64,000 nucleotides of DNA. Origin: Bordetella genomosp. 12. Its GTDB lineage: Bacteria; Pseudomonadota; Gammaproteobacteria; Burkholderiales; Burkholderiaceae_B. Positions 18,564 through 44,448 of this stretch are shown here, one piece after another; the first letter of the stretch is position 1, and the number at the start of each line of letters is the position of its first letter. The notes under the pieces are model-generated. The model had not been told where the DNA came from. It saw only the letters and a list, made by a program, of their open reading frames with translations, and ran no database searches. The position numbers were made by a program, and so were the translations under genes. The stretch spans positions 1,302,001-1,366,000 of the forward strand of contig NZ_NEVU01000003.1 of assembly GCF_002261355.1 (NCBI RefSeq). Reading direction: 5' to 3'.

Positions 18564-19667
18564 TCAATCGGTGCGCAACACCGAGGGCAGCAACAGCCAG
18601 CCCGGGCGGCGCCAGGACACCAGGCGCATATACAACCAGGTGTAGACGAGGGCAAAGACCAACAGGCTGGCGCACAGCGCCCAGGCGTTGTCCCACCAGA
18701 TCGTGGCCGGCACCAGCCCGATCAGCGCCAACACCCACATATAGGGCGAGGCCAGGGCATTGCACAGCGCCGGCACGGCATGCCGGCTGCGGCGGCTGAA
18801 GGTCACGCGCACGAGGCGGCGAAACACCAGCTGATGCAAGTGCAAGGCGTCGGGCTGATCCACCGGCACGCCCCGCTTGAAGCGGCGCCGCCAGATGGAA
18901 AAGCCGGTTTCGAACACCGGGTAAAACAACACGGCCAGGGCGTAGAAGGGCGACACCGAAGGATTGCGCACGACCAGCAGCACCGCCAGCTCGGCCAGCA
19001 TGAAGCCGAGAAAATACGCGCCGCCATCGCCCAGGAACACCCGCCCGAAGGGGAAGTTCCAGACCAGGAAACCCAGTGTGGCCGAGGCCAGCGCGGCGGA
19101 AATCATGAAGATCGGCATATCGCCCACCTGCAGGGCCACCAGGCTGATGGAGACGGCCATCAGCGTGGCGATCATGCCGGCCAGGCCGTTCATGCCGTCG
19201 ACGATATTCAGGGCGTGCGTACACCCGCCCACGGCGAAGACCGTGAACAACAGCGACACAGGCCAGAACGACAGCACCCAGTCCACCGGGGCGATGCCCA
19301 CGCGCGACACGCCGCCCAGCAGCCACCAGGCAATAGCGGCCGAGGCGAACGCGGCGAACAGGCGCTTGCTCGCGCCGATGTCCTTGGTGATGTCTTCGAG
19401 CAAGCCGGCCACGAACACCGGCATGGCGGCCACGAACAGCGCGGGCCACAGCCAGGTCAGGGTCATGTTGCTGGGGCCCAGCACCAAGAGGCCGGCCAGC
19501 GTGCCCGCCAGAACGGCCAAGCCGCCGACGCGAGGTGTGGCGCGCGTATGGGATGCCTGGGGTTTGTTGAGGTCGCTGTCGCCAGTGAAGGCGCCATGCC
19601 AACGCTCCGACGCGACGATGAGTCCCCCCACCATGAACGCGACCACGCAGATATACAGCCAGGTCAC
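18564..19667 (-). CDS. WecA/WbpL-like undecaprenyl-phosphate N-acetylhexosamine-1-phosphate transferase
   Basis: Polyprenyl-phosphate sugar-1-phosphate transferase of 367 aa, with about ten hydrophobic segments. It starts glycan assembly by loading a HexNAc-1-P onto undecaprenyl phosphate. Family motifs are GLLEDITKDIG (Asp-rich loop), the catalytic NIVDGMNGLAGM, FLGDGGAYFLGF and the basic loop ALHLHQLVF. It is the first gene of the minus-strand polysaccharide locus, preceded by about 285 bp with inverted repeats. Whether it transfers GlcNAc, GalNAc or a modified sugar (FucNAc/QuiNAc as WbpL does) is not decidable here. Confidence 0.92.
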   Translation of the reverse strand: MTWLYICVVAFMVGGLIVASERWHGAFTGDSDLNKPQASHTRATPRVGGLAVLAGTLAGLLVLGPSNMTLTWLWPALFVAAMPVFVAGLLEDITKDIGASKRLFAAFASAAIAWWLLGGVSRVGIAPVDWVLSFWPVSLLFTVFAVGGCTHALNIVDGMNGLAGMIATLMAVSISLVALQVGDMPIFMISAALASATLGFLVWNFPFGRVFLGDGGAYFLGFMLAELAVLLVVRNPSVSPFYALAVLFYPVFETGFSIWRRRFKRGVPVDQPDALHLHQLVFRRLVRVTFSRRSRHAVPALCNALASPYMWVLALIGLVPATIWWDNAWALCASLLVFALVYTWLYMRLVSWRRPGWLLLPSVLRTD

Positions 19668-19727
19668 AGGATCACCTTTGGTTGGTCTATCGAAACAGGT
19701 CCGCCATTATGTGCGGCAGGTGTAACG

Positions 19728-19739
19728 CCCATATATGGG
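19728..19739. repeat. Perfect 12-bp palindrome upstream of the polysaccharide locus
   Basis: CCCATATATGGG, 61 bases upstream of the WecA-like start codon. Its AT core is flanked by G/C triplets, and it overlaps a weak minus-strand promoter-like arrangement (TTGCAC-N16-TATATG). It may be a protein-binding site; no regulator can be assigned. Confidence 0.4.
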
Positions 19740-19801
19740 AGTGATATTCAAGTGCAAGTCGCAAGTACAGAAAGTAACGCCTGAGTCACAGGCCGCTGCC
19801 C

Positions 19802-19825
19802 TATCGGACGAAGATATGTCCGATA
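19802..19825. promoter_or_regulatory. Inverted repeat, candidate operator for the polysaccharide locus
   Basis: TATCGGAC and GTCCGATA are perfect 8-base arms separated by 8 bases (centre-to-centre 16 bp, about one and a half helical turns). It lies about 135 bases upstream of the first gene of the polysaccharide locus, in non-coding sequence. The geometry fits a dimeric regulator site or a leader hairpin. I see no JUMPstart or ops element in this region. Confidence 0.45.
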
Positions 19826-19952
19826 CAAAACGATTGTAGAGCTTTCCTAGAGGGAGCGCCGGGAAATTCCAGGGAAAACACCTAGTTGTTTGTCCCAATT
19901 TTTAACAAACCGGGGACGCGGAGGTTACATCCAGGGCCGCGCATTTTAGGCG

Positions 19953-19985
19953 AAAAAAAAGCCCGAGATCTAACGATCTCGGGCT
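19953..19985 (-). terminator. Intrinsic terminator of the putative small RNA
   Basis: On the minus strand an 11-bp perfect stem (AGCCCGAGATC / GATCTCGGGCT) with a 4-base loop is followed by eight T. This is an ideal Rho-independent terminator reading leftward. It separates the small RNA from the polysaccharide locus downstream, which therefore needs its own promoter. Confidence 0.92.
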
Positions 19986-20141
19986 AAATCCACCAAAGGA
20001 GGAGGGTGGAGGAGACAACCGTGGCATGCCTGGGTAACCCAGACGATCCAGGGAGCGCGGGAGGGGAAAAACCACTGCCTCTTTGCTTCTACCTTGGACC
20101 GCTTCGCTTGGTGCTTGCACCGTCGCGTTTCGGCATCCGTT
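19953..20141 (-). ncRNA. Putative trans-acting small RNA with anti-Shine-Dalgarno loops
   Basis: A free-standing transcription unit of about 189 nt, with a close-to-consensus promoter (20148-20176) and a perfect intrinsic terminator (19953-19985), and no convincing protein-coding frame. Visible structure from the 5' end: GGTGC/GCACC hairpin; a C-rich stretch TTTTTCCCCTCCC; CTGGG/CCCAG hairpin; then TGTCTCCTCC and a CCACC/GGTGG hairpin whose ten-base loop is CTCCTCCTTT; then the terminator. C/U-rich CCUCC motifs in loops are a known feature of bacterial small RNAs that pair with ribosome binding sites. A 102-codon frame through the region (19902-20210) has unlikely composition and runs through the terminator. 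Family, targets and Hfq dependence are inference. Confidence 0.72.
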
Positions 20142-20147
20142 GAATGA

Positions 20148-20176
20148 ATAGTAGAGGATTCTTTTGTGCGTTGCAA
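20148..20176 (-). promoter_or_regulatory. Sigma-70 promoter of the putative small RNA
   Basis: Reading leftward: -35 TTGCAA (20176-20171), 17-base spacer, -10 TACTAT (20153-20148), with an A seven bases further at 20141 as likely start of transcription. This is one of the best sigma-70 matches I saw in this GC-rich window, and the surrounding 100 bases are unusually AT-rich. Confidence 0.75.
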
Positions 20177-20414
20177 GATTTTTTTCGGAATCTGCTTTCA
20201 CTATGTGCAATTGTGGGATTCTTGCCGCAATGTCGTGAAAAACCGTGTGTTGGCAAGGGCTTGCGGCCGGGCCGCACGGTGCGTCCCTGATTACTATCCG
20301 CTGACTTGAAGGGGGAAACCCTTGGGGACTTACCCCTAGAAATTCCCCCGTGGCCCCATCCCGGCTGCCGGCGCGCCGGGCAATATGCGGCAGCGCACCA
20401 TAAGCATATGCCGG

Positions 20415-21074
20415 CTACAGGTGATAGGCCGTCGTGGTCATCACCTTGGACATAGCGCGCATGATGCCGCGCACCGGCGCGGGCAGCGGCACGCCACCGG
20501 CGCGTTCGGCGCTTTCGCGGTGCCCGACCTCGTCGTCCTTCATCTGGCGCACGATCTCGCGCGAGCGCTCATCGGCCGGCGGCAAGGTGTGCAGATGCTC
20601 GTCCAGATGGGCCTCGACCTGCCGCTCGGTCTCGGCCATGAAGCCGAGATTGCGCGGCACGCCGGCCACGCTGGCGGCGATGCCCAGCACGAAAGACCCC
20701 GCATACCAGAACGGATTGAGCAGGCTCGGGCGGCTGCCCAGCTCCTTGAGCCGCAAGTCGCACCACACCAGATGGTCCACCTCCTCGGCGGCGGCCTCGC
20801 GCAACAGATGGCGCGTGCCGCCATCGCGGCAGACCACGGCCTGCCCGCGGTAGAGCGCCTGCGCGCAGACCTCGCCGACATGATTGACCCGCATGAGGCC
20901 GGCGGCATGGCGCTTTTCCGCCTCGCTGAGCGTTTCGGCCGTTTCGGCGGCGCGGGCAGGATAAGCCCGCCCGGCCACGGCCGAACGCGACAGAACCTGC
21001 AAGGCACGGTCTACCTCGACCAGCAAGGCATCCAGAGGACCCTCGCGACGCGCGAGCGGGATGGCGGAAATCAT
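20415..21074 (-). CDS. coq7: 2-polyprenyl-3-methyl-6-methoxy-1,4-benzoquinone monooxygenase
   Basis: Di-iron hydroxylase of 219 aa catalysing the last ring hydroxylation in ubiquinone synthesis, membrane-associated through a short hydrophobic segment (SFVLGIAASVAGV). Diiron ligands are visible in LMRVNHVGEVCAQALY, EEVDHLVWC and MKDDEVGHRE. AAGGAGCC precedes ATG 21074. It is divergent from the OsmC-like gene. About 275 bp separate its stop from the promoter of the putative small RNA, and I see no clear terminator of its own. Confidence 0.95.
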   Translation of the reverse strand: MISAIPLARREGPLDALLVEVDRALQVLSRSAVAGRAYPARAAETAETLSEAEKRHAAGLMRVNHVGEVCAQALYRGQAVVCRDGGTRHLLREAAAEEVDHLVWCDLRLKELGSRPSLLNPFWYAGSFVLGIAASVAGVPRNLGFMAETERQVEAHLDEHLHTLPPADERSREIVRQMKDDEVGHRESAERAGGVPLPAPVRGIMRAMSKVMTTTAYHL

Positions 21075-44136: not shown

Positions 44137-44209
44137 GCGAGGGCGCTCCAATGGCATAGAGAATGCCGGCCCCAGGGATGCGGAAAACGCCCGGTAGCCG
44201 GTCGGGTTT

Positions 44210-44430
44210 CCGCCCCTCTGTCCTTTTGCCTGAGAGTTGCCCCGCGCGCATGGCGGGTTTGCACCTTCGGCGCCTGGGCTGACCGCTGCGCGGCGCCAGG
44301 TCTCTCCAGAGTGCTGTTACGGCCAACCGCCAGGCGGCTGGGCGTGCAATGCGCGGTATGGGTTACCTGAGCGATTCCGGGCGAATTGCGCCTTCGGCGG
44401 CGGACCTCAAGGCCCGCTCTCTCCCGCGAC
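44210..44430 (-). promoter_or_regulatory. Tandem glycine riboswitch in the gcvT leader
   Basis: Two aptamers in series on the minus strand. The first runs from GCGGGAGAGAGCGGG through GCCGAAGGCGCAA to CGCTCAGGTAACCC; the second from CTCTGGAGAGACC through GCCGAAGGTGCAAAC to the hallmark CTCAGGCAAAAGGACAGAG. This matches the known glycine riboswitch class in which both aptamers bind glycine; a short linker separates them. It controls the glycine cleavage operon, probably turning it on when glycine is plentiful. Confidence 0.95.
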
Positions 44431-44448
44431 ATGCATGACAGCGTGCGA

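Follow-up and report, generated by a model that had tools for sequence, protein, structure and literature searches.

The closest described relative of the locus analysed here is S17 of Bordetella pertussis, a small RNA (sRNA) whose gene adjoins coq7 and is transcribed from a sigma-A promoter with a 17-bp spacer, the start having been placed by RACE 7 bp after TACTAT (PMC11722255). A 190-nt precursor, S17L, is cut by RNase E to the 67-nt, Hfq-bound S17S; its C-rich single-stranded stretches repress by pairing with ribosome binding sites, the level of S17 is higher in the Bvg+ mode, the sigma-54 activator BP2158 is directly repressed, and of the 92 genes that rise without S17, 70 match its Sites 1 or 2 at or near the ribosome binding site (RBS) (PMC11722255). 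The same work postulated a repressor of the S17 promoter. In B. cenocepacia, the sRNAs ncS03, ncS05, ncS27 and ncS62 are double-hairpin RNAs with unpaired CU-rich stretches complementary to RBSs, and an upstream motif is common to three of them (PMC5688073). Overexpressed ncS27 slows growth, S17S is only mildly growth-inhibitory in Escherichia coli (PMC11722255), and a role for NcS27 in metabolic shutdown on nutrient deprivation has been proposed (PMC10987360).

A separate line of work concerns PhaR, a repressor that moves to the granule and off its operators when polyhydroxybutyrate (PHB) is made (PMC9049629). Consensus operators deduced from footprints are available from Bradyrhizobium (TGCRNYGCASMA; PMC6201568) and from Ralstonia eutropha (YTKNTGCRNYGCANMAR; PMC12849132), where the phaP1 sites lie upstream of the -35 element and around the transcription start. 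In Sinorhizobium meliloti, PhaR (AniA) represses the PHB-linked sRNA MmgR (PMC12542648). Here we describe an S17 gene in which these two lines may meet.

The gene lies in a 64,000-nt stretch of the Bordetella genomosp. 12 genome (contig NZ_NEVU01000003.1, positions 1,302,001 to 1,366,000), referred to below as the window, and comprises the following features:

20171..20176, minus strand: -35 element TTGCAA, from the sequence.
20164..20175, minus strand: putative PhaR-type operator TGCAACGCACAA, assigned by sequence, extending from the -35 element into the spacer.
20148..20153, minus strand: -10 element TACTAT; hexamer and 17-nt spacer identical to published S17.
19953..20141, minus strand: S17L-type precursor RNA, 189 nt; start at A20141 by homology, 7 nt after the -10 element.
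20132..20138, minus strand: 5' strand of the long-range helix P1, GGAUGCC, from fold and covariation.
20023..20030, minus strand: 3' strand of P1, GGCAUGCC, in which G20025 is bulged; the strand ends 5 nt short of the processing site.
19953..20017, minus strand: S17S-type mature RNA and RF02278 domain, from the RF02278 match; processing site inferred from S17.
20008..20017, minus strand: Site 1, C-rich anti-RBS sequence UGUCUCCUCC with which the mature RNA starts; in the centroid fold, the seven 5'-most bases are unpaired.
19989..20010, minus strand: hairpin 1, UCCACC/GGUGGA with loop CUCCUCCUUU (Site 2); stem 20010-20005 with 19994-19989.
19953..19985, minus strand: hairpin 2, an intrinsic terminator with 8 T; 11-pair stem, 7 of the pairs G-C.
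20415..21074, minus strand: neighbouring coq7-like ORF, a syntenic landmark outside the sRNA; the coq7 name comes from the first-pass annotation.

On the other side of the sRNA from the coq7-like ORF lies an ORF (18564-19667) that we take to encode a glycosyltransferase of the WecA kind. Elsewhere in the window, a tandem glycine riboswitch (RF00504, 58.8 and 52.7 bits) occupies 44208-44436 on the minus strand.

An Rfam search matches the mature domain to RF02278 (Betaproteobacteria toxic sRNA) at 69.6 bits against a cut-off of 50, over positions 1-64 of 64, and a genome search finds this single copy in 4.5 Mb. Like S17 of B. pertussis, which is located between coq7 and a glycosyltransferase gene, the gene has a coq7-like ORF as its neighbour, the -10 element TACTAT, a 17-nt spacer, a precursor of about 190 nt, Sites 1 and 2 and a terminator; it differs in a run of eight rather than nine T and in a -35 element that reads TTGCAA here and TTGCAT there. 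Because the RF02278 score is above the cut-off, the copy is single, promoter spacing, -10 element and length are alike, and the neighbourhood appears to be so too, we consider it virtually certain that the locus is the Bordetella S17 sRNA, an anti-RBS RNA of the RF02278 family. The B. cenocepacia RNAs resemble it in their two hairpins and CU-rich anti-RBS stretches, and ncS27 is likewise cut from a longer RNA, although B. cenocepacia has four copies and this genome one. Two other families were tried and rejected: Neisseria NmsRb (RF02877), whose UCUCCUC stretches and hairpin layout align, scores 38.1 bits against a cut-off of 52 (E 7.5e-4), and MmgR (RF00519) scores 19.1 bits against 41 (E 0.62).

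The first-pass annotation had read 19953-20176 of the minus strand as a self-contained sRNA gene, and this was borne out by the RF02278 score and by conservation. The -35 element (20176-20171), the 17-nt spacer, the -10 element (20153-20148) and the 189-nt transcript are where it had placed them, as are the 11-pair terminator stem (19985-19960, 7 G-C) with its eight T (19960-19953) and the CUCCUCC motif, displayed in a 10-nt loop on the 6-bp UCCACC/GGUGGA stem. Its view of an anti-Shine-Dalgarno RNA acting on ribosome binding sites agrees with the published account of the B. pertussis orthologue (PMC11722255). It erred in calling the gene unannotated: the family is in Rfam, the orthologue has been characterised as S17, and the gene is already known. 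While the small RNA unit stood, the processing of a precursor to a product, the long-range helix and the promoter operator were absent from that account.

The family is widely conserved. RF02278-type matches occur in 14 of 15 genomes of the genus, the sole miss being rated 73% complete, and S17 matches in 186 of 200 sampled genomes of the family; at the level of the order, 80 of 120 genomes have an RF02278 match, 49 of them above the cut-off, and none of the 14 control genomes has one. Some genomes carry many copies, with nine RF02278 matches in one (G209) and eight in another (G257; together L206 and L242-L256). Of the 14 family genomes that lack S17, 13 also lack PhaR, and eight of those 13 belong to one genus with genomes of 0.7-0.8 Mb. 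The small family genomes in which neither the sRNA nor PhaR is found comprise genus g8, G037, G052 and G071 (0.7-1.7 Mb). A strict co-occurrence of S17 and PhaR was rejected, since the tiny-genome genus dominates the family cases and all 18 scored PhaR-less genomes of the order keep the sRNA; for the same reasons, the argument for PhaR draws on the promoter box instead.

The predicted fold of the 189-nt RNA has a free energy of -71.3 kcal/mol (z = -2.78), which one of 200 shuffled sequences equals. Its long-range helix P1 was assessed in 100 sequences. Four lacked a called promoter, and among the other 96 there were 12 without a GGNNG anchor, which were not counted; the 84 anchored loci gave 62 distinct sequences, with four poor fits (L035, L076, L083 and L094) kept in. 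The eight pairs are formed in 94.4% of 496 cells (62 sequences), and double-sided changes occupy 41 cells against 9.0 (sd 2.5) in shuffles, none of 500 shuffles reaching 41; of the eight 5' positions, three are constrained by the anchor, and the double changes fall mostly at inner pairs. When the partner is slid along the sequence, pairing drops to 23-55%. Examples of strand pairs are GGAUGUCG/CGACAUGCC, GGAAGUUAAG/CUUAACUUGCC and GGAUGUUGG/CCAACAUGCC. As a structure, P1 is well supported, and with its covariation, of which the main text of PMC11722255 makes no mention, it adds to the published work on S17. The helix places the 5' triphosphate end beside the cleavage site, and we infer that it may set the place or the timing of the RNase E cut.

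The second addition concerns the promoter. The putative operator TGCAACGCACAA fits the Bradyrhizobium consensus TGCRNYGCASMA exactly and departs from the Ralstonia eutropha consensus YTKNTGCRNYGCANMAR at 2 of 17 positions. The family-wide sequence of the -35 region is TCTTGCAWYGCACAAA. Among 96 loci with the strict pattern, which itself fixes TGC and GCA, the free letters are kept as well, with C at -2 in 95, T at -3 in 93 and A at +12 in 80. The conservation extends to CAAA within the promoter spacer, where sigma factors, sigma-A included, demand no sequence. A pattern, TTGCRNYGCAMMA, was drawn from S17 promoters before the PhaR literature was consulted, and PhaR as the owner of the box was a lead that was then tested. 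In the genome of the window, TTGCRNYGCAMMA matches 26 times, at 24 places, and the reversed pattern 8 times; two boxes 53 bp apart flank the promoter of the only phasin gene (P about 1e-6). The genome has one PhaR match (PF07879, 108.3 bits), whose own gene has no box within 450 nt upstream. The two phasin boxes resemble the arrangement at the Ralstonia eutropha phaP1 promoter, with PhaR sites around the promoter (PMC12849132), whereas the sRNA promoter has a single box, at the -35 element. The genus member L004, which has TTGCAT, TACTAT, a 17-nt spacer and nine T as published for S17 and is probably B. pertussis or a close relative, carries the box TGCATCGCACAA.

Further PhaR-like boxes were seen in passing. 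At L133, a second one lies 56 bp upstream of the -35 box, and comparable boxes can be made out by eye at L023 and L025. In the genome of the window, such boxes stand 51 bp (L115, C2:396964) and 110 bp (L117, C2:607714) before ORFs, which we take to encode, respectively, an electron-transfer flavoprotein beta-like and an HU-like protein.

Comparison across genomes suggests that the box follows the presence of PhaR, with exceptions. The family survey took in 100 of the 186 genomes that carry S17, plus three further members of the genus, with the box sought up to 260 nt upstream of the core and two loci with short upstream DNA (L067 and L079) left out. The strict box is present at 90 of 92 PhaR-bearing loci, the exceptions being G165 and G179, compared with three of six PhaR-less loci (Fisher 0.001, kinship ignored); adding G005, G011 and G013, which lie outside the PhaR survey, brings the count to 93 of 95, against 0 of 95 for the reversed control. 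Two of the six PhaR-less genomes are rated 100% complete, and both belong to the three without the box. Of these three, G118 and G129 keep TCTTGC and the -10 element and have lost the remainder of the box; G070, with neither PhaR nor box, has a PHB synthase. The three PhaR-less genomes with the box (G192, G198 and G199) are in 210-310 contigs and 86-97% complete, and two of them have a PHB synthase; in these fragmented assemblies, PhaR may have been missed.

The order survey scored a single copy in each of 59 genomes out of the 80 with a match, including two from the family of the window (G019 and G048); the other 21 are the genome of the window itself, G028, six with phaP-linked matches and 13 with weaker matches. 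Taking as PhaR-less the genomes absent from 83 PhaR rows, the strict box occurs in 28 of 41 PhaR-bearing and 0 of 18 PhaR-less genomes (Fisher 3e-7, kinship ignored), and a looser pattern, chosen after the misses had been seen, in 35 of 41 and 0 of 18, with none for the reversed control. Within family f9, PhaR-less G211 lacks the box and PhaR-bearing G259 and G302 have it. Extra copies in the many-copy genomes often lack it: 6 of 17 stretches have it, one of them a copy already scored, with the first of two copies scored at L256. Upstream of phasin genes, the box is present at 31 of 31 loci against 0 of 31 for the reversed control, these loci being the genome's own phasin and 30 fetched from a subset of the phasin matches. 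PhaR-less genomes of the order tend to have another palindrome, ATTAGANNATNCTNA, at the sRNA promoter (13 of 18, against 1 of 41 PhaR-bearing; L178, L189, L192, L226-L230 and others), perhaps the operator of another regulator.

A different arrangement was found in six genomes of families f20, f22 and f29 (L199-L204), in which a weak RF02278 match lies 0-66 nt after the stop codon of a phasin gene. These matches score 30-40 bits, below the cut-off, and have the double hairpin and a terminator of their own; five of the six phasins score above the Pfam cut-off and one narrowly below it (23.4 against 24.9), and PhaR boxes lie upstream of phaP in all six genomes. For five of the six matches, phaR is no more than 1.5 kb away, against a chance expectation of about 0.1; this figure assumed 131 matches where the list holds 134, and the test was made after the nearness had been seen. 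At five of these loci, a divergent phaR lies beyond the phasin. A match in G219 is separated from a phasin by 1.8 kb and by other frames, and was left out of this group. Given boxes at sRNA promoters and sRNA matches directly after phasin genes, the family appears to be tied to PhaR in two ways, through its own promoter or through the phasin transcript.

Three other explanations bear on this account, two of them on the RNA itself. That the unit is no gene, and consists of chance hairpins behind a spurious promoter, could be argued from a promoter scan of 19400-20700, which lists no site at a threshold of 9 of 12 consensus letters where TTGCAA/TACTAT has 8; since the scan lists none, our promoter call is based on conservation and on the start mapped for S17. 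A score of 69.6 bits and presence in 186 of 200 family genomes exclude a chance origin, which we hold to be next to impossible, and the B. pertussis orthologue has been seen by Northern blot, RACE and in vitro transcription (PMC11722255). Only slightly less improbable is a dual-function RNA that is also the messenger for a small peptide, either 15 aa from the ATG at 20136, 5 nt past the transcript start, or the 32-residue frame mentioned for B. pertussis S17 (Sim et al., PMC11722255). An ATG does recur in the 5' strand of P1 in 76 of the 84 anchored loci and in its 3' strand in 61 of 84, but these ATGs are the two halves of the helix and change with it, GGAUG to GGAAG being accompanied by CAUGCC to CUUGCC in the partner. 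Because P1 accounts for the conserved ATGs, a peptide is unlikely; the first frame, moreover, is unconserved: in 36 of 76 loci it is closed by a stop at a length of 1 to 31 codons, and in 40 it stays open to the processing site. This supports the first-pass annotation, which saw no plausible protein frame.

The weightiest alternative accepts the sRNA and P1 and holds that the conserved TTGCAT-GCACAA box serves another regulator, or is an unusual -35 element and spacer, with the apparent link to PhaR reflecting shared ancestry and genome size. The statistics above ignore kinship, eight of the 13 genomes without both genes come from the one genus of 0.7-0.8 Mb, and the sharing of ATTAGANNATNCTNA among PhaR-less lineages indicates that the promoter may be re-wired by lineage. 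Yet the box fits the published PhaR consensus and stands upstream of every one of the 31 phasin loci, it has been lost from G118 and G129 where the promoter is otherwise kept, and the contrast between G211 and its f9 relatives G259 and G302 runs the same way; we therefore regard this alternative as unlikely, though far less so than the other two. Direct control of the S17 promoter by PhaR is, judged from these sequence comparisons, probable. Control of S17 by the Bvg mode counts against it, as PhaR alone does not account for that; so do the exceptions in the family and order surveys, the extra copies that lack the box and the missing box upstream of phaR itself. Nothing linking RF02278 or S17 with PhaR appeared among the literature matches listed: the main text of PMC11722255 contains no PhaR, PHB, polyhydroxy or phasin, and PMC7377471 mentions ncS27 and polyhydroxyalkanoate in unrelated places.

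Our best explanation as a whole, an S17 sRNA with the helix P1 and a PhaR-repressed promoter, has in our estimate a probability of roughly 75%. Under this explanation, a housekeeping promoter would give a precursor of about 189 nt, whose 5' end would fold back through P1 onto the stretch that immediately precedes the processing site, and a cut by RNase E at about 20017 would release a stable 65-nt double-hairpin RNA. With Hfq, the C-rich 5' end and loop of this RNA would pair with purine-rich ribosome binding sites and lower the expression of many transport and metabolic genes. PhaR would repress the promoter until PHB synthesis drew it from the DNA, so that sRNA and phasin would rise together, and the sRNA made during carbon storage would damp nutrient uptake and catabolism. 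Masking of the RBSs of transport and metabolic genes during PHB synthesis agrees with the shutdown role proposed for NcS27 (PMC10987360) and with the repressor postulated for S17 (PMC11722255). The wiring proposed is that of MmgR, with a PhaR site at an sRNA promoter, although MmgR is alphaproteobacterial.

To what is known of S17, the present analysis adds the covarying helix P1 and the link to PhaR. The family is widespread, and the S17 and NcS27 literature, in the parts available, describes growth and starvation phenotypes without naming a direct regulator. We lean, with less assurance than for the S17 promoter itself, toward a broader reading in which the betaproteobacterial 'toxic sRNA' would be the RNA arm of the PHB storage programme, controlled by PhaR through a promoter box or the phasin 3' end, so that carbon storage would shut down uptake and catabolism by RBS masking. 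If this is true, the S17 repressor postulated by Sim et al. would be PhaR, the circuit would be a betaproteobacterial counterpart of that of PhaR and MmgR, and the masking of ribosome binding sites would be tied to the state of carbon storage.
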